Source: Citrus sinensis (lineage: Eukaryota; Streptophyta; Magnoliopsida; Sapindales; Rutaceae). Taken from it: DNA of 64,000 nucleotides. Under the pieces are notes generated by a model that saw only the letters and a list, made by a program, of their open reading frames with translations, had not been told where the DNA came from and ran no database searches. The stretch's first letter is position 1. Each line of letters starts with the position of its first letter. The position numbers and the translations under genes were made by a program. Shown piece by piece: positions 6,094 to 54,710 of this stretch. The stretch covers positions 24,558,501 through 24,622,500 of the forward strand of contig NC_068561.1 in assembly GCF_022201045.2 (NCBI RefSeq), in the 5' to 3' direction.

Positions 6094-7043
6094 AAGCCTG
6101 CTGGCTCTCAATCTCATGCTCCAAACCTCTATTGAAATGACTAAAGTTAATTGTTCGGAAGTTGATTTGGTCGACAAAAGATTTGACTTCGGAAAGATTA
6201 TTTAAAAAGTCCTTTTGATATGGGGCATTTTTATCTCAGTTATATATTAAACCATTGAATACATAAAACACAAAATTCAACAACTGCGTACAATAATGGC
6301 ATCCTTTATGTATCATTCTTCTTTTCATTTTTTGTTGGTTGAGAAATTTCAAAAAAAAAATGTTAGACTTACTTCACATTTCATAAAAGTAATATTTTGA
6401 TAAATTAGTAGAGGATTTGGTAGCTCTTTGCCGGCTGAACCCTTGAATAATAATTCTATAAGATCTCAACAAAATACAATATTATAAGAAAGGGAATATA
6501 TAGGTATGAGTTATTTTTCATTTTGCAAACTTCATGAGGATGAGGATTTTGTTTATTAATTAAAATGAGATAGAACAAAGTTTGGGCAGACATAATTAGC
6601 TTGCTAACTAGATAATAATTCATTCATAAAAATAACCAAAATGGAAAACAACGCCCAAAACAAATATAAAAAAGGCACAACAAGAGATAAAACAAATATT
6701 TGATCTTGATGAACTGCAACACTCGAAAACTCCTCCACAAGCATCATGCATACATGAACAAGAACAAAGCACACACAAACAATTGCAGTTGCATCAAAAT
6801 ATGTAATAGTTTAGAATTATTTTTTCTTCACTTGTACACAAAAGAAGATCTATAATTAACTCTAGGCTATAATTCATAAGAGTAACACCACACTTGAATA
6901 TTGTTAATTAACACCAATTAATCGATCATTGTCACATGTTATCTAACATCATGCATCAATATCTCATTAATATTGTGAACGTTAATTCTATATAGCACCA
7001 ACTAATTAGTGATTCATTGAATATCATCATCTTGAGATATAAT
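6094..7043 (+). repeat. Spacer duplication, copy A (about 950 bp)
   Basis: Near-identical by eye to 13848-14950, from the shared AAGCCTGCTGGCTCTC start to the shared ATATCATCATCTTGAG end. Copy A lacks about 140 bases present in copy B (around 13902-14042) and has small indels elsewhere. No gene is visible in it. Copy B sits directly upstream of the first GDSL gene and copy A upstream of the CRLK2 gene, so the two enclose the RNase H fragment and the riboflavin synthase gene. Confidence 0.85.
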
Positions 7044-7562
7044 GGGATAAAGGTTAACATGGATGCTACAACTAAACTAGAAGATCATATTACAGGTTTG
7101 GGTTTAGTAATTAGAGACTCATTTGGAAAGTTCGTAGCCGCTACTATGCAACAATCCAAGTTTTACGGAGATGTTATGTACGCCGAAGCTGAAGCTGCTA
7201 GATTGAGGATGGAAATTGCAGAGCAAGTGGATTGCCTTCCTTTGATACTTGAAACAGATGCCCAAGAGAAGGGTAGTAGAACTGAATTTTTTTCGATAAT
7301 CTCTAAAATTCAAGACAAGCTAAAACGTTTAAAGATAATCAAGTTCCGACATGTTGTAAGAAATTGTAATGGTTTTGCTCATTCTTTAGCAAAGTTAGCT
7401 CTTGAAAATGTGGAACCTATTTACTGGATGAGCAATGTCCTAAAACAATTTTTGTACCTATTTAATGAGTTCTCTCAACGAAAGGTTTACTTTCGTTTCA
7501 ATATATATATATATACACACACACACACAATAAGTGAAATAGTTCCAATGACTAATGAATGA
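7044..7562 (+). mobile_element. RNase H-like (RVT_3) fragment of a LINE-type element
   Basis: An open frame starting at or just after the end of duplication copy A reads like the RNase H-like domain found at the C-terminal end of plant non-LTR elements and in many genome-scattered fragments. Visible landmarks are VNMDATTK (first Asp), the AEAEAARL helix (Glu), LILETDAQ (Asp) and CNGFAHSLAKLAL near the end. No reverse transcriptase or endonuclease lies upstream, so it is a fragment of about 170 codons. Its final third and the downstream non-coding tail are repeated at 9553. Expression from this spot is doubtful. Confidence 0.65.
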
Positions 7563-9266: not shown

Positions 9267-9552
9267 ATATTTCCATTATAAAGATATGGTTTGTGATCCT
9301 TTAACTTAAAATTTTGGTACAATATTTGAGCCACTAATATCTCAAGTCTAATGGTTGATATTGAAAGTCAAAGCGCCATTTCATAATGTTATATCCTCCA
9401 CCATTGAATTGCATGAAATAAAATAGTTTAATTTTTTGATTAAAATTTAAATCAAAATATTTCTCACTCTATAGTTATATAGACATATATATTTTTCAAT
9501 AATAATTGGTGAATAAAATATTTCTCATTTGTGGTGACTCATATAGTATTAT

Positions 9553-9696
9553 TAAGAAATTGTAATGGTTTTGCTCATTCTTTAGCAAAGTTAGCTCTTG
9601 AAAATGTGGAACCTATTTACTGGATGGGCAATGTCCTAAAACAATTTTTGTACCTATTTAATGAGTTCTCTCAACGAAATGTTTACTTTCGTTTCA

Positions 9697-9727
<31 letters not shown>

Positions 9728-10230
9728 ATAAGTGAAATAGTTCCAATGACTAATGAATGAATGAACAATGCAGTCACAGAATCAGACTAATTAGTACCTA
9801 TAAATATTAGGAAAATTATCAATCATATACCTTTGGTTTACTTCATTATCAAATTTACTACAATATTTTTAGGGTATATCAGTCGTTCACTCTAAGTTGA
9901 CAAAATGTATTTATCATCCACCAAGCCGTTAGTTGCTGTTTAAATATGATAATATCAGATGAGTAATATTATTTTTTTATATAATATAAGTGATAATTTA
10001 AGGATATATAAGTGATAATAAAAGATTTTAAGGGTATACAAGTGATAATTTTTAAGGGTAAAATCATCAATTCACTATAGTTCCGTTAACTTTCAAACAG
10101 CAGTTAACATTTTAGTAGTCAGTAGATAATTTTTATCAATTTAAAATAAATAATTGATACATTCATAAAATTTTATAATATTTTTAATAAAAACACAAAT
10201 TTGATGTACACGAATGAATGATAAATATTA
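9553..10230 (+). repeat. 678-bp direct duplication, copy 2
   Basis: Second copy of 7357-8027, carrying the last part of the RNase H-like frame without its start. It ends at 10230, about 200 bases before the riboflavin synthase start codon, so it forms most of that gene's upstream region. Confidence 0.85.
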
Positions 10231-13847: not shown

Positions 13848-14950
13848 AAGCCTGCTGGCTCTCAATCTCATGCTCCAAACCTCTATTAAAATGACTAAAG
13901 TACCCATGTAAGATTGAGTAGTGGCCATTATAATATATTCGATCTTGGAATAGATTGAATATGTAACGGGAAAAAAAAAAAAAGGGATCTGAAGGTTGTT
14001 GTTTAATTAAAGTTGAAAATATATCAAAATACTTTTCTTGCTCGGAAGTTGATTTGGTCGACAAAGGATTTGACTTCGGAAAGATTATTTAAAAAATCCT
14101 TTTGATATGGGCCATTTTTCTCTCAATTATTTATTAAACCATTGAATACATAAAACACAAAATTCAACAACGGCGTACAATAATAGCATCTTTTGTGTAT
14201 CATTCTTCTTTTCATTTTTGTTGGTTGAGAAATATAAAAAAAAAAAAAATGTTAACACTTACTTCACATTTCATAAAAGTAATATTTTGATAAATTAGAA
14301 GAGGATTGGGTCGCTCTTTGCCGTGCTAAGCCCTTGAATAATAATTCTATAAAATCTCAACAAAATACAATATTATAAGAAAGGGAATATATAGGCATGA
14401 GTTATTTTTTTATTTTGCAAACTTCATTAGGATGAGGATTTTGTTTATTAATTAACATGAGATAGAACATAGTTTGCGCAGACATAATTAGGCTGCTAAG
14501 TAGATAATAATTCATTCATAAAAATAACCAAAATGGAAAACAACGCCCAAAACAAATATAAAAAAAAAGGCACAACAAGAGAGAGGACAAATGTTTGATC
14601 TTGATGAACTGCAACACTCGAAAACTCCTCCACAAGCATCGTGTATATATGAACAAGAACAAAGCGCACACAAACAATTGCAGTTGCATCAAAATAGGTA
14701 ATAGTTTAGAATTATTTTTTCTTCAATTGTACACAAAGGAAGATCTATAATTAACTCTAGGCTATAATTCATAAGAGTAACACCACACTTGAATATTGTT
14801 AATGAACAACAAGTTAACACCAATTAATCGATCATTGTCGCATGTTATCTAATATCATGCATCAATACCTCATTAAACATTGTGAACGTTAATTCTATAT
14901 AGCACCAACCAATTAGTGATTCATCCAATATCATCATCTTGAGGTATAAT
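13848..14950 (+). repeat. Spacer duplication, copy B (about 1.1 kb)
   Basis: Partner of 6094-7043 in direct orientation, with about 140 extra bases near its left end. It lies directly upstream of the first GDSL gene. Together the copies flank 7044-13847, which holds the LINE-type fragment and the riboflavin synthase gene. Confidence 0.85.
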
Positions 14951-15105: not shown

Positions 15106-15532
15106 ATAAAAAGTCTCTTTGTGCACGTACTATCTTTCTAACTATCTACATCAAGCACACAAAACACTAGGGTTATTTTTCCTATGGGCGATTCATACTA
15201 GGATATATACAACATTCAATTGTGACGTTCACACATGGAATCTATTACTGTCAGAAACTGAGTATCACGGAATCCACATTGCTGAGGTTTACGATAAAGA
15301 AATTTGAAGGTGAATGGCTGGATGATTGTGGCTCCAAACAACAAAAGATTAGGTGACCTAGGCGAGGACCAAAAAAAAAAAACCTTGTTCTATTATATTA
15401 TGCATTAGTCACTTAATAAAAAAAAAGGGACAGAAGCCATCACCCTTAACTCCTTTAAATTCTTCGTCACCAAACAGATTTTACACATATCAATTCTTTG
15501 CATCGCACTTTCGATCTCCTATAAAGTACTCA

Positions 15533-17462
15533 ATGATCAGCAAATACTCTATCACATCTTCATTTATTTTTCTCCTGTTTATCACCAGTAGTACCGATGC
15601 GACATCTCGGCTTGCACCGGCGTTGTATGTATTGGGGGATTCATTGTTGGACAGTGGCAACAACAATTATTTGCAAACAATTATTAAGGCAAATTACTCA
15701 CCATATGGTGAAGATTTTGTAAATAAATCCACTGGAAGGTTCTCAAATGGTAAAACTGTGGCAGATTTCATAGGTACAATTACAAATGATTAAAATGCAT
15801 TTTCTTAATTAGGAATTATCATACGAAGCACGCACTTGCATATTGCTTAATTTTGTTACTCTTCCTTTTTTCTTTTTTTTTTTCTTTCTCTTTTAGCTGA
15901 ATTTCTTGGGCTGCCGTATGCTCCACCATTTTTGAGCTTTAAACCTCGTGACAAGCTACCATTAACTGGGTTGAATTATGCATCTGGCGCGTGCGGCATT
16001 CTCCCTGACACTGGACATCATTTGGTAATTAATTAAGTATATTATTAGTTTACAGCAAAATTTTCCTATAGTTTTTACAACATTAATTTCTTTAGATTAA
16101 TTTTTAATAGCATTATCTATTCTTCGTCGACAAAGATTCTATCATAATTTAACCATTTAAAGATCTAACACGTGCATCTATATATTTTTTTTCAAAGAAG
16201 TTTTTCTTCGCCCCCCCCCCCCCCCCTAAAAAAAAAGAAAAAGCACATCATATATCTAAATTGTACGTGAAAAATGCATTTAGGATGCTTGTCCATTTAT
16301 GTCGACGGAGTAAATATTGTAATTAATTAATTAATCCCACTGACATCATCGTACTAAATTTCAATGATTTTTTTTTCTCAATTAATTTCTACTTTGTTTG
16401 CAGGGAGATTTGTTGAGTTTGGAAGAACAAGTGGGTCTATTCCAAGACACTCTTGTTAGGCTGCAAGGGAGATATTTTAAGAGCTCGAAAGAGCTTTCAG
16501 AATATTTATCAAAGTCGATATTCATAATATCCATAGGCAGTAACGACTATATAAGTAATTATCCTGCCACCTTGTTGCACGATACAAACAAGCGTTTTGC
16601 CCGACTCCTCACAAGCAAGCTGTCCCACCAGCTCCAGGTTCTCTCTCTCATCATCATCATCATTATTATTATTTTACATATATAATCGTTATCAGGTGTG
16701 CAGATGTTATCGTTTTTAAATTCGGATGGGTCTATTCACTAGATAATAACGATAAAAAGAAATCTTGTAATAAGCAGCTGTTTGCATGGCATGAACATTT
16801 TGTCCGTGTATCTGCAGAGGCTGTATAACTTGGGAGCAAGGAAGATCGTCGTGTCCGAGATCGGCCCGATTGGTTGCGTGCCGGCGATTACGAGCCAAAA
16901 CAAACACAAAGGAAAATGTGTTGAACACAAAAACCGGCTTGTGGCTGAGTACAACAGCATGCTTCCGGCAATGTTGCAGAACTTGACATCTAGTCTCCAA
17001 GGCTCCAGCTTTCTTAACGGTCACGCATATCGCCTAGCCTATGATGCTATCATAAATCCTTCTAATTACGGTAAGGGGTGGTTATTCATATGGTCAGCGT
17101 AGGCTACTACAAGTGTCCTCACTCGTTCATGTGAGCGAGCGAGTTCGAATATCATCAACTCAGACCTATTATTTCAACTCAAAAATTTAATACTGTTATA
17201 ACTTGAAATTGTAACGAATTTCCGCTTGACATATACTTGTTTTGCAGGTTTAATGGATGCAAGCAATCCATGTTGTAAAACTTGGTTGAGTGGGATTGAA
17301 GGGTGCATTCCATTTGCTGAGCCATGCGACCGCAGAGATAAATACTATTTTTGGGATGGGTATCATCCTTCAGAAATTGTGTATTCACACTTTGCATCCC
17401 GTTGTATCAACAATGCATCGTTTTGCTCTCCTTTCAGCTTGAAGGAGCTCGTGAAAATGTGA
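15533..17462 (+). CDS. GDSL esterase/lipase, tandem copy 1
   Basis: Secreted SGNH-family esterase of the plant GLIP type; it hydrolyses ester or lipid substrates outside the cell, substrate unknown. Exons: 15533-15773, 15897-16024, 16404-16637, 16818-17070, 17248-17462, all GT-AG, giving 356 residues. An N-terminal hydrophobic signal peptide (about 1-23) precedes [16 protein letters not shown] with the nucleophile Ser37 (block I). Block III has SIGSNDY with Asn170, and block V has WDGYH with Asp322 and His325, so the active site is complete. Intron 3 is short and intron 2 carries a poly-C run near 16210. The five-exon layout and intron phases are the same as in the copies at 21917 and 28360, so the three arose by tandem duplication. 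It is related to Arabidopsis GLIP7 by position (recalled). Confidence 0.93.
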
Positions 17463-21795: not shown

Positions 21796-21916
21796 AGCAA
21801 AAACATTTTCTCATACGTTACATAAATTTAATTTTCCTCCTCACCAAGCAGCGGCATTACTATTCTTAATTTCTTCATTCTTTCTATAACTCTCTAAATT
21901 AATATTTGAAACGTAT

Positions 21917-23849
21917 ATGACGATGACCATGAGCAAAAACTCTGTAATATTTTCTTTCATTTTTCTCCCGTTTATCAGCAGTGCAACGACTCAACTTGCA
22001 CCGGCGCTGTATGTTTTCGGGGACTCGTTGCTCGACAGTGGCAATAACAATTTTTTGCCAACAGTTGCTAGGGCAAATTACTTACCATATGGTGCAAATT
22101 TTGTCAACAGAAGCACTGGAAGATTTACTAATGGCAAGACAGTTGCAGATTTTATAGGTACGTAATATCTTGTAAGAAATTAGACAACTATTCATTTTCT
22201 TTAATTCTTCATCGTATATATATACATATATGAAGTTATGAACTACTTGTAGTATTTGCTTAGTTATGTTATGATAACTATTATAATAATAATAATTATT
22301 ATTTTTTAAAAGCTGAATTTCTTGGACTGCCATATTCTCCACCATTTCTGAGCTATAAACGTGACTTGCTACCACTCACTGGATTGAATTATGCATCTGG
22401 CTCATGCGGCATTCTTCCAGAAACTGGTAGCCCCTTTGTAAGTATTCAAACACCCTAATTAATTGTGCCCTCTTTCAACTTTGCATTGTTTCTTTCAATT
22501 TTAATATCTGTGAATTATCAATATCATTAAAAGGAACACGCGTTTATAAAGTTGGATACAAAGTTTGTATTTAAAATGATGTGGCACATGTTTTATCATT
22601 GCTGTAAAATAATATAGTCAATTATGATATAAAAAGTCAACTATTACCAAATAAATGACAATTACTGATTGGTGATACATTATTTGGATACAAAGTCTGT
22701 ATCTCAACTTTAAAACTTATCATTATTTCATTTAGCATACTAAAAACTAATCTCTAAGTGTATGAATTTAATTCATAGCTCGCAAAATTGAACATTCCAT
22801 CAAACATGTCATATGTAAGTCAACTGTAAATAATCTATAATAACTTTGAATATTTTAGTCAACTGATGATTTATGCGAAAGGTAATTAATTAGTCCCACT
22901 AAGTTTTGATGATTGTTCATTAATTTATATCTTCTTTTCAGGGGCAATGCTTGAATTTTGAAGAGCAGGTGGGTTTGTTCCAGGACTCCGTTAAGTCGCT
23001 GCAACAACGATATTTTCAAATCTTAGTTGATTTTTCAAATTATTTATCGAAGTCGGTATTCATAGTATCCATAGGCAGTAACGACTATATAAACAATTAT
23101 CTTGAAACCTCATTATACGATACGAGCAAACGTTACACTCCGCAACAATTTGCTCAACTCCTCGTATATAAACTCTCCCAGCAACTGGAGGTAAATATAT
23201 GCACGAACGTATATATGTATGTGTGTAACCGTAATTAATATTTTTTGTTAATCTTATTTTTGTATGCATTTGCAGCGGCTATATAACTTGGGAGCGAGGA
23301 AGATAGTCGTGTTTGAGCTTGGTCCAATCGGATGCTTACCGTGGATTACAAGGAACAATAAACACACGGGACAATGTGTTGAAGACACAAACCAGATTGT
23401 GTCCTATTTCAACAACATGCTTCCTGCAATGTTACAAAACTTGACAACCAGTCTCAAAGGTTCCAACTTCATTAATGGTCATGGTCATGGGGTAGGCTAT
23501 GATGCAATTATAAATCCCTCTAAGTATGGTAAGTTTGAAGCTATAGCTAGCGTATCACACTAGAAGTTCTTCAAATTTGATAATTTCACAATTTTACCGA
23601 GAACATTTCTTGTTGTTCATATAAAATTTTACAGGTATAGCAGATGCAAGCAATCCATGTTGTACAGCTTTCTTTAATGGGACTTCAGGGTGCATTCCAT
23701 ACCTCAGGCCTTGCAATAACACAAATAAACACTATTTTTGGGATGGCTATCATCCTACAGAAGATGTATATTCAATCTTAGCATCTGGTTGTATCAACAA
23801 TGCGTCATTTTGCACTCCTCATAGCTTAAAGGATCTTGTTAAGGTGTGA
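21917..23849 (+). CDS. GDSL esterase/lipase, tandem copy 2
   Basis: Second secreted GLIP-type esterase. Exons: 21917-22157, 22313-22437, 22942-23190, 23276-23528, 23635-23849, giving 360 residues. Signal peptide about 1-25, then [13 protein letters not shown] with Ser37, [11 protein letters not shown] (block II), [11 protein letters not shown] (block III Asn) and FWDGYHPTE (catalytic Asp and His). The start is one of three in-frame Met codons (21917, 21923, 21929); the third aligns best with the MISK/MISN starts of the other copies. Intron 3 is about 500 bases, longer than in copy 1. Compared with copy 1 it has one codon fewer in exon 2 and five more in exon 3. The F-box genes lie between copies 1 and 2 on the other strand. 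Confidence 0.93.
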
Positions 23850-28275: not shown

Positions 28276-28359
28276 CTCCACAATTCACAAAGAACATCAA
28301 ACAGCTAGCGCTATTAATTCTTTCTTCATTCTTTCTGCAAACTCTCCAATATTGAAAAT

Positions 28360-31300
28360 ATGATCAGCAACAGTTACTCTATAATATTTTCAGTCTTTTT
28401 TCTTCGATTTATCAGCAGCAACGCAACTCAGCTTGCGCCGGCACTGTATGTTTTCGGAGACTCGTTGTTTGACAGCGGCAACAACAATCTTTTGCCAACA
28501 ATTGCTAGGGCAAATTACTTACCATATGGTGCAAATTTTGTCAATAAAAGCAGTACAGGAAGATTCACAAATGGTAAAACAGTTCCCGATTTTGTAGGTA
28601 TGCTGTAGCTGGCTTATTGACATTTTCTTCATAATATAAGTGCACGAACTACTTGCATTTTGCTAATTATTAATTCTTCTGATATGATTTAATTGATTTT
28701 TCGTTTTTAGCTGAATTTTTGGGGCTGCCATATTCACCACCATTTTTGAAAATACGTGACAAGTTACCACTTACTGGGTTGAATTATGCATCTGGGTCAT
28801 GTGGCATTCTCCCTGAAACCGGACGCCCCTTTGTAAGTTTAGATTCAAAACTAATTTTTTCTTCTTTCAGTAATATTTTCTTTCTTTTGAAAAAAAAAAA
28901 ACTCTTAGAGAAAGATAATTAATCCACTTTCATAGTCACATTATTTGTGTTCGCTATTGTATATGCTTCTATTTAGTTAAAGGGTATACTTTTTTCTTGG
29001 TCCCTAAAGTTGTAGTTTATAATTTCTAATTAATCACCGTATCATTTTGCGCGCCGCTATTTTTTTTGGGAAAAAAAAAAAAATTTACTAGTCCGATGTA
29101 TAACGACATAAATATTTACCGCTGATAATAAAGTAGTTTCTTTGCAACGCTCAAAATGTTACCTTGAGCACTAGTAAAAGTAACAAGAAGGATGTTATTT
29201 TTACTACAATAACTAACGCTAGTAGAATTAATGGCTAACGCTAAGAAGTTATGAGAAATATACTCTTTAATTCAGTACATTAAACCAGTAGAAGAGATTT
29301 ATTATATATATATATATATTATTTGATACCAAAGGTATGTGAATGCTAGTTAGATGATCTTTTATTTGTTAAATAAAATTATTAAATGTCAAACATCTAT
29401 ATCTTATAATTTTTTTTTTTTTTGGGACACTAGAATCATTTACGCGAACGGCGAAGTAACGAGTCAAACCTAATTTAGACTAAGTCAATTGTGCAGGCAC
29501 GTCTGATTATTAGGTCCCGTCAACATATCTGAGAGTTTGTTTAATAAATTGAAGAATGACCAATATTCCCCTCTCATTTGGGAAAACTAATTATTTTCCC
29601 GTCATGTTTAAAATTCACTTGAATCCTCTTGACAATACAGTGTTAAACAACTCCATACATGTTTAGAATGACACAGTTTAATGAACATAAATAGACTTTA
29701 ACCCTAATTTTGGAGTAAAAATTTGAAATTTAACAAAGCATAATTAACAACGTTGTATGATTCTAGTGGATCCTAGAAAAATGAGGAAATGGTTAGTCTT
29801 GCTAAATGAATTGGATATTTTGGTAGTTTTTTTTTTTTAATTTCCTCAGGTAACAGTGGGGTTCGATTCCTTGAATTTGCTTGTGAAGTTTGAGAACATC
29901 CTTGTAATGTAAGGTTTTTCATTAATTTCTATCTTTAACTAATTAATGCTTTTGCAGGGGAAATGCTTAAATTTTGAAGAACAAGTGAGTTTATTCGATG
30001 AGACAGTTAAGTTGCTGCGGAGACATTTTACAAGCTCAAAAGTGCTTTCAAATTATTTGTCGAAGTCGATATTTATTATCTCCATTGGCAGTAATGATTA
30101 CTTGAGTAGTTATCTCGGAACCTTGTCTTTCAATACAAACGTACGTTATACTCCCCAACAGTTTGCTCAACTCCTCATAGAAAAGCTCTCTCACCAATTC
30201 CAGGTTATCTCTATCACTCTCGCATTCATACGACGACGTTGTCATGAATAATAATTTAGTGGGTAACGCCACTCATTTTATGGTTGACGACACTCTTATA
30301 TGGCACTATCTGATTGATTTACTACCTCGACATTATTTACATAAGTTACAGAATTGCATTTACTGTCTAATAATTAATTATTATAAAGTGTGCGAAATTG
30401 CTCGCTAGATCATTCATATGATCGGTGTCATCAAGTATAATATTTATGTGTTTTTAAAATGTGGACAATCAATTTTTGGCACAATCATTTAATTTATTAT
30501 GTATAATTAAGCAGAGGCTATATAACTTGGGAGCAAGAAAGATTGTGATGTTCGAGATCGGTCCGATCGGTTGCATTCCCTCGATTACAAGGAAAAATAA
30601 ACACTCAGGAAAATGTGTTGAAGACAAGAACCAGCTTGTGTCTTATTTCAATAACATGCTTCCTACAATGCTACAAAACTTGACATCATGTCTCGAAGGC
30701 TCCACCTTTGTCAACGGTCATGCTCACTGGCTAGGCTATGATGCTGTCATAAATCCTCCTAAATACGGTAAGTTTAAGAGTGAATAACAACATAATTTGC
30801 CGTATAAGAACAATAGCTTTTCACTAATGGCCATCAATTTATAGAAGAGAAAATAATATTAAAAGAAAGAAATTAATAATAAAATATCATAATCCAGGCC
30901 ATAATTGGGGATTCATATCCCATTTTCGAATTCTCTTGAATATATACATATACCAATTTTAGAAAACATATTGCTCATATAAGTAATGATTGTTCCGTTT
31001 AGAACCATCTTCTTGTGATTCTTACCAAAGAAAAATATTACCAAAAAAAGTTCTTTAGAATATGAAATCGAGTATAATTATGATATACTCACATCGTTTG
31101 CATAGCTTATTATTAATTTATACATGTAAGTTGCTGGTTAGCTTTATTTTCTATTATTAAGGTGATAACCTTACCTCATCAATTAATAAATGAATGACAC
31201 GACAATTAAGTATGTCATATATCAGCTATGTAAGTACGGTATTACTCATTCTAATATGATAAGGACTTCATTGTCATATAGGCATATTCCAGCAGTCACT

Positions 31301-31610
31301 CAGCATATCTCTTGTAACCAATGCGTAGCTTAAATAGACCTCTATTGTACATAATAAATCATGAGCTAATGCAATTTTCTAAAAACCTTTTGCAGGTTTA
31401 GTGGATTCAAGCAATCCATGTTGCATAGCTTGGTTCAATGGGACTTCGGGGTGCATTCCGTTTCTGAAGCCATGCAGTAACGCAAATCAACATTATTTTT
31501 GGGATGCTTATCATCTTACAGAAGCTATGTATTCACTCTTTGCATCCCATTGTATCAACGATAAATCGTTTTGCGAACCTTTCAATTTAAAGGAGCTCGT
31601 AAAAATGTGA
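28360..31610 (+). CDS. GDSL esterase/lipase, tandem copy 3
   Basis: Third intact secreted GLIP-type esterase. Exons: 28360-28597, 28711-28832, 29958-30203, 30515-30767, 31396-31610, giving 357 residues. Signal peptide about 1-22, [13 protein letters not shown] with Ser35, [22 protein letters not shown] and FWDAYHLTE. The catalytic Asp and His are present, although the usual DGYHPTE has become DAYHLTE, the least conserved version in the cluster. Introns 3 (1.1 kb) and 4 (0.6 kb) are larger than in the other copies; intron 3 has poly-T runs near 29410 and 29830 and a GGGGTTCGATTCC motif near 29860 that hints at old short retroelement insertions. Intron phases match copies 1 and 2. Confidence 0.92.
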
Positions 31611-32741: not shown

Positions 32742-33378
32742 TCAGTGTCGAGGCTCGTGATTGTTGATTGGAGGCTTGCGGCGAGGCTTTGACATTCCTC
32801 TGTAATCCTTCTGCATCAAGTTCTCGATCTCTTTAGCCGCGATGAGAAGCCTTTGAGTGTCGACATCAGGACGCTCTTGTGAGACTTCATTTTCTTGATC
32901 ACGAGGTTGCATTTGCTTGGGGTTCGAAAGAGAAACAGCTGGCTGTTGTGAAAACATAAAGTAGTGTGAAATGTTAGAATATAGCCATAGGTTAGTGGAA
33001 AAAGCAATATACTTTTTTTTTTTAGGGGTAAAGTGCATGTGTTTGATATAATACATTCTTTCTGTTGTGTCATTGTGTGTGTGAAAAAGAGAGACAATCA
33101 CCTGATCATCATCTTGGGGGTGATCAAAGCTTTCAAGATACTTCTTTGAAGCTTCGGCACTTCGCTTTCCTGCATTAAAAAGAACAAATATATATCATAA
33201 ATTAAACCATGCATTATTTAATTAATTACTTTCGCAACACACATATATCTCAAACTTTGATTAATAAAATAAACTAAGAAAAAAACTAGTTAATACTCCC
33301 ATGTAAAAGATTGGATAGCATTAAGATAAGTAACAATGTACTGCGACTGATGAATAGCTCAAGCATACGAAAATCCAT
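32742..33378 (-). CDS. RGF/GLV/CLEL-type secreted peptide precursor B
   Basis: Precursor of a tyrosine-sulfated root-growth peptide. Proposed exons on the minus strand: 33378-33297, 33169-33102, 32942-32742, GT-AG junctions, 116 residues. Exon 1 encodes a short hydrophobic leader (ISRSTLLLILMLSNLLHG). Exon 2 gives a basic RKRSAEASKKYLESF stretch. The last exon ends with DYRGMSKPRRKPPINN followed by HEPRH. The Asp-Tyr sulfation site, the Arg/Lys-Pro-Pro core and the terminal Asn-Asn fit the RGF family; the five extra residues after the motif would have to be trimmed. The first exon is the weakest part: its donor is poor (GGGA|GTATTA). The alternative is that exon 2 is spliced to exon 1 of unit A, which is also in phase. 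The start lies only 114 bases after the stop of unit A. Confidence 0.7.
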
Positions 33379-33492
33379 TTTATACACAACAAAATTTCTT
33401 GCAAATTAATACAAGTATACGATACATATAATTTCCTAGCTTGCTGGCACATTACTAAGGCAAACAAAGTGATCTGAAATCACTGCTCATCA

Positions 33493-34193
33493 TCAGTTAT
33501 GTTTAGGAGGGTGGCGTTTAGGCCCATGATAATCAGAATTGAAGGCTACAAAACCAGCTGCATTATTCAACTTATGACTATTACTTTTATGATCCTCAAA
33601 TTTTCTTTTGCCTAAAAAATCTCCTCTCCCTTCAAAGTGAAAATTTCCATCAGAATGACTGGCACCTGAAATCTTCAAAGTCCCTGATTTATCCATCCCT
33701 TTGGGGTTCTTCTCATGCTCTTTCCAAACCATATGTACTGCCATTTTCCTTCCTTGAAGCCATAGTTTACTCATGCTGATTGCGCCAGCAACGCCATGAT
33801 CATCAGCAACCTCCTGCGTAAATGTTTGTATTTATGAAATAATCAGAATTAGCTAATCAAAATAATTGATGACAAATTATCATAGCTAATGCAATAACAA
33901 GCTTAATTAGCTAACCTTTCGAGGAGAAACAGCATGTCCTTGATCAATTGCACCAAGCCCATTTCTTGATGTTGCTTCATCTAAAAAAAAGAGGGAAAAA
34001 AATAAATAAAGAAAGAAAACATAAGCTCAATCAATCTGTAACCCATGTTGCTTATTGAATTTCAACAAAATTAATGGAGAAGAAATTAAGCATTAATTAT
34101 TTTACCTTGAGCAAGTGCAAAAGAGCAATCTCTAATGCCATGCATAAGAAAGAGAAACCCTATCGCAATAATTAAAAGCCTTATGGGAGCCAT
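33493..34193 (-). CDS. RGF/GLV/CLEL-type secreted peptide precursor A
   Basis: Secreted peptide precursor that signals through RGI-type receptor kinases to control root meristem or gravitropism in relatives. Exons on the minus strand: 34193-34106, 33980-33916, 33813-33493, all GT-AG, 157 residues. Residues 1-28 form a strong signal peptide (RLLIIAIGFLFLMHG ... SFALAQ) with an ALA-type cleavage site. A variable, basic, Gly/Asn/His-rich middle follows. The last 13 residues before the stop are DYHGPKRHPPKHN, with the Asp-Tyr sulfation site, a Pro-Pro pair open to hydroxylation and the terminal His-Asn, the same length and end as RGF1. It is a clear family member; which Arabidopsis gene it matches cannot be told by eye. 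The region shares its strand and possibly its promoter with unit B. Confidence 0.85.
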
Positions 34194-37100: not shown

Positions 37101-37340
37101 TTTGCTAGTTCTACTGCAAAACCAATGCCGTGCAAATCTCACAAGCTATGTGCAATGATAGCTACACTTGTGTGAGAGATGGATTGAGACATTAGAAATA
37201 ACGGCAGTGGAAAAGACAACACAAATTTTGGGTCTGTTAGTTAATGCAGATTAAAAACACAGTAAGACTTAACCACCCAGCTTATTGAGTATGCTCATGC
37301 CAAATTCTCCTCACTATACGGAGAAAGAGAAAACAAAATT
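34194..37340. other. Gene-free spacer upstream of the RGF locus
   Basis: Contains the likely promoter of the RGF unit A just right of 34193 and otherwise about 3 kb without a supported gene. The stretch 36550-36960 is less AT-rich with overlapping frames on both strands, but none has recognisable motifs. Confidence 0.35.
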
Positions 37341-39560
37341 ATGGAGAGAGAAAAAATAAGTCTTGCTATTCTGTTTCTTCACGTCTTGATCATGCAGCAG
37401 TTTCTTGCGTTTGCTCATGGACAAGCAAGTAATACTTCTCTAACACCGGCCATGTTCATCTTTGGTGAGACTATGATTAACAGTGAAAACAACAACTCCA
37501 TAATGACCATTGCACGAGAAAACTATAGGCATCCTCATGGGATTGATTTTGGCTATCCTACTGACCGCTTCTGCAACGGTATCAGTGCTGCTGGTTGTGC
37601 AGGTACTTAAAAGAAATATACACATCATTTTCATTTAGCAAGGACGTTACTGCTTTATATAGTAAGAAAGTTCTTTACATTTTGCAGCTCATTACCTTGG
37701 TTTGCCATTTATTCCACCTTGACTATGTCCGCTGTCTGAAGGTAAAAACATCATGAAGGGACTAATTAGGCATCTGCTGCAACTGGGATTCCTGACGAGA
37801 TTGGGCGACATTATGTCAGTTCCATATTTTCAGTTCATTGTATGTTACTTGGTTTAACTATTTTATAAAGTTGCACTAGAAATACTTCTCTTCCATTTTA
37901 GCTGAGTGTTTACCACAATTTAACTCATGACTCATGAGGCCAGCAAATAGTTCAGTACCCTTGTTGACAAAATTTTGAACGTATGTAGAAAAATAATCAC
38001 ATCAGTGCACAGTAAGTTTAGTATAGCATATGAAGCAAGTAAATTACGTGCAGAAAAAGACTAGGCTAGTGACTGGACACACCTTCTAATCTCAGTTCTA
38101 CATACCTCTAAAGTGCAGAAAAAGACAAGGCCAATGACCCGAACACCTTATCTCAGTTTCTATAGACCTCCTAAACTAACTTGTCCCCTTCATTTCATAA
38201 ATAACTGATCTCAATATTTGAAAACTACGTTACTAAAAGATTTGACTCAAAGTATTACTATTTTCTGGGAGCAAGGATAACATGTTAAGGATAGATCACT
38301 CTATTTAAGACCACAATCATGTACAACCAATTTTCCAAAAACCAACCGATCTAACCCAGTACATTGCCAAATCACTATTCCTTATTAGTATAGGCAGCAA
38401 TGACTATATAAACAATTATCTCCAGCCAAGCACGTATGCCAGCAGTCAAATCTATAGCGGAGAAGGTTTTGCTGTTCTCATAATAAATAATTTCTCAGAG
38501 CAATTATCAGTATGTCCTTATCATAAGCCTTGAGGGAGTGTGTGTGTTTGTATGTAAGTTTATCTTGTATCGTATTTTGTCATATAAAATGTTTATATTA
38601 TTCTAGGAAGATGGTTTGAGAAGGCAATATATCAATCATGAAATTAGGAAAGGAATGGAATGTACATCTTCCCAGAAAATGGCTTCACATCTTCCTAGAA
38701 AATGACTTCAGCTCCACCTAATCTCATACATTCTCTCAAGATAATACAATAACAACCAATATCAGGTACACTTACATAGATATTATAGATTCCCAAAAGG
38801 ACATGGATGGAATGCAGACCAAACCATACCTGATTTGAATATAATCAGAAGTAGCTTATATAAGTAAACCAGACAAAGTGGCATAAAAGTGATGCCTGAA
38901 CTACGGGACTAAGTGGTTATCATCTTGGTTCCACCGGATTAAATTCTCTCAACTACCCAGTAGTCATCTTTGTAACACCTGCATCACAAAGAAACCGAGA
39001 ATTCTGTAGACCCAACGTTTATTAACAAAGAATATATTGCGTGGTTCATGCAAATATATATCTACCTGCAAGAATTTCTCCATTATTTTGCTCTTTTCTT
39101 TTTCCGAGGTTACATGTATGCTGAAATGCCCAAAGTAGAAAGCTTTATCCGAGCAAGAATTAGAAAAACTAGGTTATGTAACCTAAAAAAACATAGCCCG
39201 GATACATTTCACAATAAAATGTAACAAAAATACAAGTGGATTGTGACAGAACTTGTGCGTGCTAAATATTTACAAGCAGCTTAAGAAAAATCCTCCATTT
39301 CTAACTCAATGTGTAACTGCTTAGGAAAAAGCTGAATACTAACCTGAAAAATGATAATAAAATAATAACCATAAATGATATTTTCTTGTATCTCTAGAAA
39401 TTGTACATCTTGGGAGTGCGGAAAACGGTGTGTGCTAGACTTGGACCACTTGGTTGCATACCCAGTAAATATCTTTGGCAAGCAGCAACAACAGCTGTAA
39501 TTGAGCAGGTCAACAACTTGGTTACAATATTCAACAGCATCTCATTCAGCTCACCTTTTG
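37341..39560 (+). pseudogene. Dead fourth GDSL esterase copy
   Basis: Exon 1 (37341-37602) is open with a good signal peptide and keeps the phase-1 donor, but the active-site block reads FIFGETMINSENNNS where the family has [12 protein letters not shown], so the nucleophile Ser is gone. The exon 2 equivalent (from 37688) starts AHYLGLPFIPP, meets TGA and then continues as ASAATGIPDEIGRHY in another frame. A piece of exon 3 ([13 protein letters not shown]) is at about 38385-38440, and a piece of exon 4 (LYILGVRKTVCARLGPLGCIPS) at 39398-39465. The exon 5 region is not found. About 950 bases of unrelated sequence separate the exon 3 and 4 traces. It is more distant from copies 1-3 than they are from each other. 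Confidence 0.85.
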
Positions 39561-39652
39561 TCTTCTTTCAATTCATCAATACTGAAATTTTTCAAGACTC
39601 AGCATCAGTGTTGCAAGTTCTTCAGCCTCTCTATCATTCAAATTTCTTTTAA

Positions 39653-41798
39653 AATTGGACCTCCAATTCCAATTATTCTGGATGAAACATTCCTAGAAAG
39701 GCATAATATGTACAAATGGGGGAATTTCTCACAACAAAAAAACAGCCCTCTATTTATCCTCCCAAAAATGATTATACTTCCCATTTCCCACTTCTAAGGC
39801 AACATGATTAAGAAAATTAGGGTAGTCCTTAGATATAGCTTTCCGAGGGTTTCTATTGAATATTTCAAATACTATTCAATCTAAATATAACTTTTTCACA
39901 ACCAAAAAAAAAAAAAAAAATCGACATCAACCCTTCTTTTAATTTTCTGACCCTTTTTGCATTTCCAAATGAAAAATTTATCTAAATAGTACAATGGCAC
40001 CAATTTCCAAGGTTTCTCGTCACAAACAAAGCTTGTTGTGGAAACATGAGAAATGGAGGGCATCTTACCTGCCTTCCCCTGCAGCAACCATGGGCTAACA
40101 GAAATCAAAACATCTTCTGGGATCCTTTCATCCAAAACTGCCAATGCAATTGTAGTTGATAAAAGTAACAAACACTTGCTTTTCAATAAGCATTGACCAC
40201 CTGGCAGAACTATGGAGGATATAAGAGAGAAGAAAAGTCCAGTGTAACAGCCTTCATTTCTATTACTCAACAGTATGGCGGCCTTTATTTCTGTTACTAC
40301 TCTAGTTTTCATGTAGATGATGCAAGTGAGCAACAAAATACATGGCATTGCCATACTATCTAAAAAAGCTTCAGTAAACCAAATCTGTAGAACATTTTCA
40401 TTCTTCCTTGATTAAGGTGACTGTTAGTCTTACCTTGAAGCTGATGGCCCAATCAAAAGAGGACATCATTATCTCCAAAACATCTAGACTTGTTTTAAAA
40501 CAAGGCTACCAAGCTAGTAGAGAACCTAAAGCAGCCAAAAAGAATACAGATTAATTCTCTGTGAAAAGCATTTCGTAAGAATTAGAAACGATCAAACTGA
40601 ATAACTCCAGCCATGATGCACCCTATCCCACAAGAGACTCTTCTTGCTGCTGGACATGAAGAAACACTCATACCGGATTCTTGAGAAAGAATTATGGTGA
40701 AAATTGCAGTTTGTCCAACAAAATTGCTGTACAAATCAACAAAGGAGTATTCCCCTCTCTTATCCAACAATTGTGAAATCTCCACGTAACTCCATGCAAA
40801 ATATGACAAAACTCAGGGAAAAGATCGGTTGACACCCCCTACTTGGCTAGATATTTGACAGATTACAGATGGGACATGGAAAGAATGATTAAAACCCCTA
40901 CGATTTCACCTGAGCATGGGAATAAAATTAAAATTTTGTGACAAATCAATTAGTGATGTACATTTGAGTACCCCTTTAACCATCATAAATAATTTCAAGT
41001 AACTTTTGAAGTTCTAACCATATTTACTTGAGAAGCAGTGATAATATAAATTACACCGTGCTATCCTTGACTAAAAATCTAAGAGGGTTCGTTATATATC
41101 TTTTAGCTACTTATGTCAATTTCAGAAGAAGGGAAAAAGGACAATAGTTCTAAATTTGAGCAAAAGAAGCAGCACAAAAAAAAACCAGCTAACTTAAGCA
41201 ACAAAGGCTCGAGATATATGAACAAGAATCAACACTAGACGATTGTATAAATGAACCAACATGAATAAATAATAAGAAAGTAACAAAATTTCAATATAAG
41301 ATACTTGCAAGTGCTAAACAATTTCAAAAAGTGTACAAAAACTTTAAAGGTAAAAAGAAGGAAAAATTCTTCTTACAATTGTTCCTAGGCATTAGCATAC
41401 ATTTAAGTACATTCTATATTTAGCCCAGCTCTATTCCAGTTATAAATTACAACAGGGCGCCCATTCCATATGCACAGAGCCCAGACCAGACGATGCCAAG
41501 GAATGCTTTCTAGAAAATTCAGTGACAAAACCTGCTTGGCTGCTTCCAAGCGTAATTACTCTATTCACCATAATGGTGTGATGTAAGCACATGCTCCACC
41601 CTTCATACTGATGCAACATGCAAAACTCAATGAATTTGGATCATAAATCAGCCAGAAAAGGTCAGAGAACTTTGGGAGGATCCGTCAGACAATCAGAAGT
41701 GGAATTAGTAAAAGAGGAGGTTAAAAGTGAAGATTATACCCTCATAAACCTCTCAATAGAAAATAAAATGTTAGGCCCCGAAGCTAAAAATTTCCAGC
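39653..41798. other. Spacer and 3' flank of the F-box gene
   Basis: The part right of about 41380 is probably the 3' UTR of the minus-strand F-box gene. The rest has several loose frames, one of 152 codons (40354-39896, minus), but it ends in a poly-Phe run from poly-A and shows no domain. I see no supported gene. Confidence 0.35.
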
Positions 41799-43094
41799 TC
41801 AATAGATGGAAGCATCAAATCTTGGCTCATAAAAGCAGACCTGGCTATTATACGACTGAAGAGCACATCCAGCAATCCAAGACCAAGCTTTCTTATCCAC
41901 ATCGTAAAGAAGGCCCTTCCCTTGGTTCCACGATGTAAAACAGATTAAATTATCCTGTCCAAAGCACTCAAATCTTTCAGCTGATAGCCTTAATAAAGCT
42001 CGAAAATATTTTGGCGGCATCCTACTCATCTCCACCCACATAATCTTTGAATGATCCAATTCCCAAATTCTCATGCTCTGGAGGGTACTATAGAGACCAA
42101 TCCTTCCAACAAGAAACAGACGCTTCTGTGTACCAGCAACCAAATACCCGTCTAACAAGGAACGGGGGAACTTCGCCGGGATGTGTTCCCAGTAACCTGT
42201 GTCTAGCCTGTACATCATCAAACCCAGTGGCGAAAGAGTTTCCAAATACAACCGGGAGTCACAATACGCCATCTTTGAAGAGCAAAGATTAACTGCAGGC
42301 ATTATCTGGTGGACAGCCCATCTGTCAAGTTTTGAATCATACACTTCAGTGGGCAATGACTTGTCACCATATATATCACTAGTCGCAATCACTTTGAATG
42401 AACGGTCCACCCGGTCAACAACCATTATCAACTGTCTTTGCTGATTATAATGCATGCTCGGCAATGTCCTCCATGATTGGGTAAGCGGATTGCACACGAG
42501 TGTTCTGAAAGTTAGCCCATCAAGCCCAGAAAAACAAACAAGACCACCTGAAGAACCAACCAACCAGAATGCCCACAGAGGCAAAAAATTAAATGGAATC
42601 CTATACCATGTTTTCAGCGGCAAGCTAAAAACTGAGCATTGCGGTGTCTGAGAGTTCTTCCAAAATGTAAGAAGACAAGGCCCATGAGATGGCACTTGTG
42701 AATGAAATTTAAGAAAACTACCATCCTGAAGTATAGAATTCCACCGTCTACAAACAGAACGAAGCCGAAAGATCATAAAAGGAGGAACCCTGGCTAAAAT
42801 CTCATTCAACAAGTCTTCAGGCAACATCGCCCAGATGTTATCTTCCATTTGGACATCTGGATGGATTGCTTTACCAAATGTAGCTGCCGTTTCCTCATCT
42901 AAACCACGAGGTTTTGTCTTAATCACCTTTTGCCTAGAAGGGCTAGTATTTCTCGATCCAACACGACCCATAGGGCTTGTGTTTCTTGAACCACCACCCC
43001 TAATAGGTGACACTTGCTTAGGACACCTCTCTTGTGAACTAGATAATGTAGCTTCCCCGGACCTAGAATCAGAAGCTTGACCAATGCCTTCCAT
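41799..43094 (-). CDS. F-box/kelch-type protein, At5g15710 type
   Basis: Adaptor of an SCF ubiquitin ligase that brings a target to the complex, target unknown. A single coding exon gives 431 residues; Arabidopsis At5g15710 is about the same length and, from memory, nearly identical over long stretches such as [21 protein letters not shown] Ser-rich N-terminal region with two GSRNTSP repeats (35-41 and 46-52) precedes the F-box at about 88-130 ([20 protein letters not shown]). Kelch-like repeats follow, with [13 protein letters not shown] and [12 protein letters not shown]. The Met at 43094 (MEGIGQ) was chosen to match relatives; an in-frame Met at 43148 lies in likely 5' UTR. The unusual conservation and single-copy state contrast with the decaying F-box pair at 18-21 kb. 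Confidence 0.93.
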
Positions 43095-43650
43095 GTTAAC
43101 AATCCCTAAAGACTCAATTAACCAAAGACAAGCTCTTATATACACCAAATGTATACTCTATTCCAAGTTTTACACACCAAAAAGATCCAAACTTTCAAGC
43201 TCAAGTGCATTCAGTCACAACCCAATAAGAAATTCTGATCGGAAACACCAAATGTAAGCTCCCAATTCACTTTCCAGATAACAAAAATTCAAACTTTCAA
43301 GCTCAAATATTGATTTCAAGCCTCAAACAACAATACCCAAAACCCCAAACAATCAAATAACAACTGTCCTTCAAAAGCCCTAACATTTAGCCAGATCCCC
43401 AAATGACCCACTTTCAATAAATGGTAAAATTAAATCAACAACTATAATATTAAATGAGCTACAGAGCGAAGATCAACTAACAATAATTCAAAGATCGAAA
43501 CTTTGAGGGTTATTTAGCAGGTGGGTTACCTTTGAATTCAAGAATCATGAAACTCACTTTTGGCTTTTAGTGGGATAAAGCTTCCTCAGAGAACTCAAAA
43601 GAAGAAAACTTGGGCATTGAAATGAGAGAAGAAAGAAGCCAACCCAAAAG
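43095..43650 (-). promoter_or_regulatory. 5' UTR and probable leader intron of the F-box gene
   Basis: On the minus strand a donor AAAG|GTAACC at about 43533 and AG sites before 43150 allow a leader intron of roughly 400 bases. The first exon would lie at about 43535-43650, rich in GA. Confidence 0.4.
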
Positions 43651-51906: not shown

Positions 51907-54710
51907 ATGGGGGCGGTCACGTCGACGATGGCGGCGAAGTTCGCTTTTTTTCCGCCGAGTCCGCCATCGTACGAGCTGGAGGAGGTGGTGAAAGGGAAGC
52001 TGGGTATGTCGGGAGTGGCGGAGAGGGAAACCGTCGACGTTTTGAGACTTGATACTAAGAGAGGGAATCAAGTGGTGGCGGTGTACATTAAGAATCCTAC
52101 TGCTAAGTTGACTTTGCTTTACTCTCACGGTAACGCCGCTGATCTGGGTCACATGTACGAGTTGTTTTATGAACTCAGTGCTCATCTTCGAGTTAACTTG
52201 ATGGGGTCAGTACATATTTAATTTTTCGAATTATCTCAATTTGCATGCTTTTAAAATGAAGATAAAATTACTAGTCAAGTTTGCAAATTCAGTACAGTGG
52301 ATCACGGTAGTCATATTTTAGGATATGTTTGGAATAGAAGTGAATGAGGCTCTTAATTTGCTGTTGCTGTGGAATAGAATCTGGATAGTTGTAATTGGTA
52401 AACATTAGCTATCTACGTAAAATTGTTAATAACACGTTAGTTGTGCTTTCGAGGTTTGGACAACAATTGGTACATACCCTTGACTCGAAGGTTAGTGGTG
52501 ATTAAGAGTATGCTTGTAACGGTTGTACTTCTACTTAATTTTGAAAGCAGAGATATACACATTTATGCTTGACTAATAATGATTTTATTCCACAGTAGCT
52601 ATGAATTAAAAGCCACACACATCAAATTCCAAACATCCCTTAAATACATTGACCAAGTAAGTTATGATGTGTATGTCTCTGTGTGTGTACAGGGTGCTTT
52701 GATGTTTACACTTTAGTACTGTTACGAATAAAGTCACTGAATTTGTGGAGGGTTTATGCAGGTATGATTATTCTGGGTATGGGCAGTCTACTGGGAAGGT
52801 ATGGTTTTTGGATTTTCTTGTGTTTGGTTGCTGAGAAAAATGAGGAAACAAGAATTTTGAATTTCAGTTTTTTTTTTTGTTAGTAATTGTTTTTTTAGTT
52901 GAGAAAATGGAGGATAAGAAAGGCAACCATATGATTTTTGGAGTTTTGATCCTGTTTTATGCTCGGTTAAGTGTTCATAGTGGAAACTAAAACAGTGTTT
53001 TAGCATACCACTGTTTTTCTGCTACCAAGATTAATTGATTTTTGAATCTCTATTTATGATTGCTGAAATATAGCTTTCATACTCTTTGACCAGCCAAGTG
53101 AGCAGAACACTTATTATGACATAGAAGCTGTATATAGATGCCTTGAAGAAAAATATGGGGTGGAGGAGGAAGATGTTATCTTGTATGGGCAATCAGTGGG
53201 GAGTGGACCCACTCTAGATTTGGCAACCCAGCTACCTAGATTGAGGGCTGTAATTCTCCACAGTCCAATCTTGTCTGGTATTCGAGTCATGTATCCGGTG
53301 AAACGAACATACTGGTTTGACATTTATAAGGTTTTTTCTCTATAGATTTTGAAATTTCAGAAACTTTGATGCATTGCCTTTTAGTAAAATAACTCTATTT
53401 TATTGATTGTTTCTATTTATGGTGCAGAATATTGATAAAATACCATTGGTCAGTTGTCCAGTCCTGGTGATTCATGTAAGTATTTTTCCACTTATGAGGC
53501 GTTAGTTAACACTACTGCTCTTAGATAATGTGGTGTTTAGGTGTGTGCTATATTCTGAATATTTGCCATCTGAGCCCTTGCTTCACATACTCCCTCCTCA
53601 GATTCTTTCTGTTTCTTTCTAAGCCCTTATAAACTTTATTCACCGGGAAACTCAACAGTCTTTCAAAATTCTTATGGGCTCATTTCCAGTTGGCCTTTTC
53701 CATATCAACTGAGAAAGACTATAAGATAATCACAAAATCTTTCAACTTTAACCATCGTATGTGAATATACCATACTCTGGAATGGCCATTGGATTTGAAG
53801 GTCTAAATGCATGCACTTTTTATTGTCAAGATTTGAAATGGTATCCCATCTTGATATAAATTTGCATAACTTGAACATACCAGCCATTATTCAATGTTTC
53901 TGTTCATGAAGTGATATCAATATTGCACTATTTGGTTTCATGCAATGTGGAGTGATCTGGGGGAACCAAGCTCATGAGTGAACTTCTTGCTTTGTGGTTC
54001 CTTGTGCCTCTTGCAGGGAACTGCCGATGATGTTGTGGATTGGTCCCATGGTAAGCAGCTGTGGGAACTCTGCAAAGAGAAGTATGAACCATTATGGATC
54101 AAAGGGGGCAACCATTGTGACTTGGAGCTTTATCCCCAATACATCAAGCATCTAAAAAAGTTCATATCAGCCATTGAGAAATCACATTCGAGAAACGGAT
54201 CTGCGCTGACTATGGATCAACCAGGGAATCACCGAAAGAGCAAAGATTTTAGAGACACATCCACACCAATTATAGATCAGAGGGAGAAGTACAGGCTGAG
54301 TACCAACCAAGGAGATAAACCGAGACAAAGCACTGACCGAAGAGAGAAATCAAGAACCAGTGTTGATGGGAAAGAGAAATCAAGAACCAGCGTTGATGGG
54401 AAAGAGAAATCAAGAACCAGCATTGATAGGAGAGAAAAATCAAGAAAAAGTATGGATCACCCCGACAAATCAATTAACGGCACAGACCCACCGGAGAAAG
54501 CGAGAAACAGCATTGACCGGTAAGTCATTTTTTAACTACATGAGAATTTTTATCCATATAGCTTTTCTGAACCAGTTGTGCCCATATGGTGGCACAAGTT
54601 TGTACAAGTCTAGTTGAAACTGAATTGCCTGTGGCAGGTTAGGTGGCATGATGAGATCAGTCAAACTATACAATATTGATTGTTTCAAGCCTACGGCAAC
54701 AAGTATGTAG
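51907..54710 (+). CDS. ABHD17-type alpha/beta hydrolase (BEM46/WAV2-like)
   Basis: Serine hydrolase of the ABHD17 family, which in animals removes palmitate from membrane proteins; the plant role is largely unknown. Exons: 51907-52205, 52762-52798, 53094-53330, 53428-53475, 54017-54519, 54638-54710, all GT-AG, 398 residues. Gly2 in MGAVTSTM may be myristoylated. The fold motifs are [12 protein letters not shown] (oxyanion region), [12 protein letters not shown], nucleophile GQSVGSG with Ser146, HGTADDVVD with Asp211 and [11 protein letters not shown] with His240, a full triad. After residue about 265 the tail is a hydrophilic, basic repeat with a ten-residue unit ([10 protein letters not shown] and variants) in at least four copies, then a conserved-looking end in exon 6 ([17 protein letters not shown]). 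Arabidopsis At5g14390-like proteins share the body and a similar but different repeat tail. Confidence 0.94.

Follow-up and report, generated by a model that had tools for sequence, protein, structure and literature searches.

The minus strand of the window analysed here (the whole 64,000-nucleotide stretch of Citrus sinensis, on contig C6) carries two complete three-exon genes between positions 32742 and 34193, with 114 bp from the stop of the first to the start of the second. From the observed gene structures, motifs, paralogous copies and neighbourhood, we put at roughly 0.8 the probability that these are two separate, intact genes of the RGF/GLV/CLEL type, which go back to an old tandem duplication and whose motifs diverged before an ancient eudicot block duplication. 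Tandem RGF genes are already known, pairs within 200 kb being recorded for Arabidopsis, poplar, Medicago and soybean in PMC8708909, and what this pair of unlike genes adds, modestly, is its age. Among the papers listed by the literature searches, none described an RGF pair in citrus, which does not prove that no such report exists.

Gene 1 (34193-33493) encodes a predicted protein of 157 aa in an in-frame CDS of 474 bp. Its first exon (34106-34193), which the splice context closes in phase 1, holds the start codon and a signal-peptide-like stretch, MAPIRLLIIAIGFLFLMHGIRDCSFALAQ; the second (33916-33980) was placed by splice context, and the third (33493-33813), fixed by frame and splice context, ends in the hormone motif DYHGPKRHPPKHN followed by the stop codon. 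The predicted mature peptide 1 is this C-terminal 13-mer (33496-33534), as delimited by the motif and by comparison with Arabidopsis peptides. Gene 2 (33378-32742) encodes 116 aa in an in-frame CDS of 351 bp. Its exons, assigned in the same manner, contain the start codon and the signal-peptide-like stretch MDFRMLELFISRSTLLLILMLSNLLHG (33297-33378), a middle segment (33102-33169), and the hormone motif with its tail and stop (32742-32942). The C-terminus, DYRGMSKPRRKPPINNHEPRH, is made up of the motif DYRGMSKPRRKPPINN and the 5-residue tail HEPRH, so written from 32759 to 32745; the motif itself is the predicted mature peptide 2, a 16-mer at 32760-32807 with a genome match at C6:24591260-24591307. 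The ends of the interval are exact, being the stop of gene 2 (32742) and the ATG of gene 1 (34193), both on the minus strand. GT-AG borders were found at all four introns, which measure 125 and 102 bp in gene 1 and 127 and 159 bp in gene 2, and the intron phases are equal, 1 then 0 in each gene, those of gene 2 having been derived from its exon lengths of 82 and 68. The first-pass annotation had proposed two different RGF/GLV peptides encoded back to back on one strand, the second unit starting 114 bases after the stop of the first precursor; the intact frames, splice sites and motifs confirm this, and the spacing is exactly 114 bp. A scan of the gap (33379-33492) revealed one TATAT, 52 bp before the gene 2 ATG, and no AATAAA anywhere in it; the first AATAAT-like poly(A) signal past the gene 1 stop comes 274 nt on, within intron 1 of gene 2. 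A gap of 114 bp is short for an ordinary 3' UTR plus a promoter, and independent transcription of gene 2 is not obvious.

Judged by their sequence, both products are precursors of the RGF/GLV/CLEL type and belong to a known family rather than to something new. Each N-terminus is signal-peptide-like, with an 11-residue hydropathy peak of 3.25 at residue 6 in gene 1 and a peak of 2.61 at residue 15 in gene 2, hydropathy being the sole measure behind these calls. Each protein has a single motif of the form Asp-Tyr ... Pro-Pro-x-x-Asn, at the very C-terminus in gene 1 and just before HEPRH in gene 2. The two introns of each gene agree with a usual, though not universal, trait of the family, since introns are described as present in most RGF genes (PMC8708909). 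A loose RGF regular expression matched exactly two sites in the six-frame translation of the window, as against 10 matches when the whole window was simulated 300 times with a first-order Markov model, and a stricter one gave two in the window and one in the 300 simulations; both expressions were composed with the peptides of gene 1 and gene 2 in view, which somewhat favours these sites. A chance occurrence of the motif was rejected, the matches in the window being far above those in simulated windows. Neither protein matched a Pfam family at E values up to 1, a database that may hold no RGF model, and the gene 1 peptide matched no solved structure at E values up to 10, a query of 24 residues that is too short for this to mean much.

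To place the two hormones within the family, we compared them with 12 Arabidopsis mature peptides from the table of PMC11534595, a set that leaves out RGF1. Gene 1 scored highest with RGF5 (9/13), RGF2 (8/13) and RGF10 (8/13). By these peptide scores it shares the 13-residue style of the RGF2/RGF3/RGF5 group (8/13, 8/13 and 9/13), RGF10 being about as close. RGF1 joins RGF2, RGF3 and RGF5 in group H of PMC8708909, whose members are described as active in the root tip, where the meristem requires them. Gene 2, in turn, is closest to RGF4/GLV3 (At3g30350; DYPIYSKPRRKPPVNN), with 12/16 identical residues, followed by GLV8 with 10/16 aligned. The RGF4/GLV3 precursor is considerably longer (180 aa in PMC11534595, against 116 aa for gene 2) and its locus number is far from At3g02240 and At3g02242. 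When the RGF4/GLV3 peptide was searched against the orange genome, the single candidate was gene 2 of the window (E 0.716); a seed-based search has little power with so short a query, and this does not imply the absence of other RGF4/GLV3-style members. Overexpression of RGF4, like that of RGF6 and RGF9, is stated to disturb gravitropism (PMC11756074).

Neighbouring GLV genes on Arabidopsis chromosome 3, which the first-pass annotation had mentioned, are borne out by the same table (PMC11534595): GLV4/RGF7 (At3g02240; DYGQRKYKPPVHN) and GLV8 (At3g02242; DYQGPKPRSKPLKNN) have adjacent locus numbers, and their peptides, 13 residues long in the one and 15 in the other, are unlike. These peptides nevertheless differ from the window pair, gene 1 sharing 7/13 residues with GLV4 and gene 2 the 10/16 already given with GLV8. 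A role of GLV4 in leaf immunity has been proposed in the literature (PMC9066070). GLV9 (At5g15725; EYPSPVKPRKRTPVHN) is a 16-residue peptide with a KPR core, as in gene 2, but it carries Glu-Tyr and shares 7/16 positions with gene 2, and the table of PMC11534595 lists no second GLV beside it.

We infer that both genes are expressed and that their products are processed, sulfated and bound by receptors, perhaps with some division of labour. The first-pass annotation suggested that one locus may supply two ligands with distinct receptor preference; its view of the pair is largely sound, and this functional part may or may not hold. The signal peptide would lead each precursor into the secretory pathway, TPST would sulfate the Tyr of Asp-Tyr, and subtilases would release the C-terminal peptide, so that gene 1 would give a 13-mer of the RGF2/RGF3/RGF5 style and gene 2 a 16-mer of the RGF4/GLV3 style; once secreted, both peptides would act on RGI/RGFR receptor kinases. 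The 16-mer is within the known size range, since PMC9066070 gives 13 to 18 residues for mature GLV peptides. In RGF1 the final Asn makes contact with the RxR motif of the receptor (PMC6749341), and the HEPRH tail of gene 2 therefore probably needs trimming as well, which would leave Asn last. The tail also resembles letters in a monocot RGF domain, DYYGASVHEPRHH, given in PMC8708909, probably by coincidence.

Searches of the complete genome (299.7 Mb in 11 contigs) indicated that the pair has a history outside the window. Gene 1 gave four candidates in all: itself, C3:8670066-8670131 (E 3.5e-4), C4:24268415-24268474 (E 0.014) and C3:51252924-51252977 (E 0.39). Gene 2 gave two in all, namely itself and C3:8669457-8669549 (E 1.26), and the latter is found some 0.5 kb downstream of the first C3 copy of gene 1, on the same strand. 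This second match is weak genome-wide and convincing only by position; its E value is 1e-4 when just the window and four selected loci are searched, and with the C3 sequence as query the sole match besides itself is gene 2 of the window (E 0.33). In the alignment, the stop of gene 1 and exon 2 of gene 2 are separated by 323 bp in the window and by 335 bp on C3. The C3 copy of gene 1 is open, DYHVPKSHPPRNN. Its companion has NKVSSGHSGARQKPLNKNN in place of the window's QKDYRGMSKPRRKPPINN, with Asp-Tyr lost; no frame is free of stops in its middle part, and no signal-peptide exon was seen in it. C3 carries a decayed copy of the same unlike pair, an open gene 1 with a relic of gene 2. The gene 1 copy on C4 reads DYRAPRHHPPKNN; in the 9.9 kb around it a search for gene 2 gave chance-level matches only, as did a search of the 9.9 kb around the C3:51.25 Mb locus (best E values 4.2 and 2.3). 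That last locus (C3:51248000-51257900) contains, on the minus strand at 5505-4922 of the piece, a further RGF-type precursor with the C-terminus DYSPPKTHPPSHN.

Gene 2 is accordingly intact in one of the three copies (C6), decayed in another (C3) and was not found around the third (C4). Together with the little room for a promoter in the 114-bp gap, the degenerate C3 counterpart and the failure to find one near the C4 copy could mean that in the window, too, gene 2 is only a remnant, decaying or unexpressed, and that the hormone comes from gene 1 alone. We regard this as unlikely, since in the window its splice sites, frame, signal-peptide-like start and full motif are all intact, whereas the C3 counterpart has lost the motif. 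Loss of the second motif was thus seen in one paralogous copy of the same genome; it means that gene 2 was dispensable in that copy, and it is not proof that gene 2 of the window is dead. The C3 relic offers a naturally occurring duplicate in which the motif was lost.

The preferred reading, of two intact genes with an old common history, draws further on the neighbourhood. On C6 the order is an RGP gene (24.419 Mb), a BIG-type gene (24.525), the RGF pair (24.591-24.593), an F-box gene (24.600), an RNA polymerase gene (about 24.621) and a FRY-like gene (24.637), the genes around the pair all lying within about 220 kb. The BIG-type and FRY-type genes flanking the pair were each matched at one locus only. 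The gene order available for Arabidopsis places RGP1 (At3g02230), GLV4, GLV8 and BIG (At3g02260) in one region, and RGP2 (At5g15650), an ARM-repeat gene (At5g15680, which we take to be FRY-like), a polymerase-family gene (At5g15700) and an F-box gene (At5g15710) in that of GLV9; GLV9 there adjoins GLIP7 (At5g15720), and matching families surround the window pair. Two of the markers fall within the window. The F-box gene (41799-43157, minus strand) probably corresponds, by sequence match and primers, to At5g15710 and to the citrus FBOX reference gene: the sweet orange reference primers of PMC9857262 match it exactly (forward, 42226-42245; a primer that also occurs in a grapefruit paper and in one on banana and tomato) or with one mismatch (reverse, 42134-42153), the sweet orange FBOX gene is given as the At5g15710 counterpart in PMC7986492, and the other four F-box matches in the genome are 30-32% identical. 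An open frame on the plus strand (61926-62414) takes in one exon of a gene for a phage-type RNA polymerase; that gene extends past the window and has an At5g15700-like position. A table for apple (PMC3953208) has genes of both Arabidopsis regions interleaved on one chromosome. The flanking genes are shared, and the window pair is thus at the place corresponding to the Arabidopsis GLV4/GLV8 and GLV9 regions.

The same neighbours allow an estimate of age. The distance from an RGP gene to the RGF copy is about 170 kb on C6, 255 kb on C3 and 304 kb on C4, and the chance for a random place to be that near an RGP gene is about 1% (arithmetic that takes some five RGP loci over 300 Mb). Over 320 codons, Ks between the RGP genes was 1.67 for C6-C3, 1.48 for C6-C4 and 1.09 for C3-C4, values that come from one gene family and are near saturation. 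The calculation took in the three block copies of RGP; the locus at C4:16.12 Mb was left out, as the peptide anchors were not found in it, and the loci at C4:16.10 and C6:4.97 Mb are also outside the set. The RGF copies on C6 and C4 have RNA polymerase genes nearby, and a third such polymerase locus, on C9, is away from any RGF copy found. COBRA genes adjoin the RGP gene of C3, where a cluster of about five genes of that family occupies C3:8382493-8405076 in the paralogous block. With a decayed pair on C3, RGP genes near all three copies and RGP Ks values of 1.1-1.7, the unlike pair would therefore predate an old block duplication, and its origin probably lies before C3 and C6 split. Three blocks of such age probably fit the core-eudicot triplication; to our knowledge, citrus has had no later whole-genome duplication.

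The two genes of the window are themselves only 22% identical in the alignment. Aligned as DNA, the units reach a score of 141.6, moderately above 200 single-base shuffles (mean 103.7, sd 10.6, maximum 132.6), which counts against the preferred reading. A fresh tandem copy, already doubted in the first-pass annotation, was rejected on the 22% identity, the decayed pair on C3 and the RGP Ks values. A lineage-specific tandem duplication followed by fast divergence, independent of Arabidopsis GLV4/GLV8, is a further possibility: At3g02240 is listed in PMC3756979 as a lineage-specific new duplicate of At3g02242, by which the Arabidopsis pair would be independent of the window pair, and the Brassica study PMC11939866 gives no tandem RGF genes in its three species. 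Against it stand the 22% identity and the decayed pair on C3 near an RGP copy at Ks of about 1.7 from the one on C6, and we hold it to be quite improbable. The conflict with PMC3756979 means that either the dating there is wrong, or Arabidopsis re-duplicated one member of the pair after losing the other. Under the preferred reading of an old unlike pair, the neighbouring GLV pair of Arabidopsis is suggested to be one of its descendants and not a recent accident.

The narrow gap raises the question of whether the two genes are separate at all. In a single transcription unit with alternative last exons, the promoter and signal-peptide exon of gene 1 would serve both hormones, gene 1 exons being joined to the gene 1 last exon or skipping to gene 2 exons 2-3 or exon 3. 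The 114 bp without a clear core promoter and the position of the first AATAAT-like signal, 274 nt past the gene 1 stop in intron 1 of gene 2, would agree with this, as would the chimeric splices, two of the three tried being in frame (gene 1 exon 1 with gene 2 exons 2-3, and gene 1 exons 1-2 with gene 2 exon 3) and combining a signal-peptide-like start with the gene 2 hormone. Gene 2 nevertheless comes with a start codon and a signal-peptide-like exon of its own, common descent alone would give equal intron phases, and At3g02240 and At3g02242 are treated as two genes with different expression patterns in PMC3756979; a shared unit is, in our view, very unlikely. Because the 114-bp gap and the common phases allow in-frame splicing to either hormone exon, the locus might even be a hormone switch, in which splicing picks an RGF2-style or an RGF4-style ligand and which has been kept since before the core-eudicot triplication, a possible but unsupported idea to which we give the least credence of all. 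The pair makes a compact locus for comparing two hormone styles in their native neighbourhood.

Several other features of the window were recorded by eye. Four GDSL-lipase-like genes stand in a row on the plus strand (15362-17462, 21890-23849, 28318-31610 and 37266-40159); the RGF pair sits between the last two of them, on the other strand. The fourth has FGETM in place of the GDSL of the other three, and its catalytic Ser motif looks lost. When four exons were scanned with Pfam Lipase_GDSL, one scored above the cut-off, one below it, and two had no match. Further along, an alpha/beta-hydrolase-like gene (53978-54523, plus strand) has short repeats in its C-terminal exon, and this repeat-bearing exon gave no Pfam match. 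Finally, two pairs of look-alike open frames were noticed near the start of the window (6604-6810 with 14496-14705, and 6996-7562 with 9513-9731); one of these frames has an RVT_3 domain, and both pairs are probably the remains of mobile elements.
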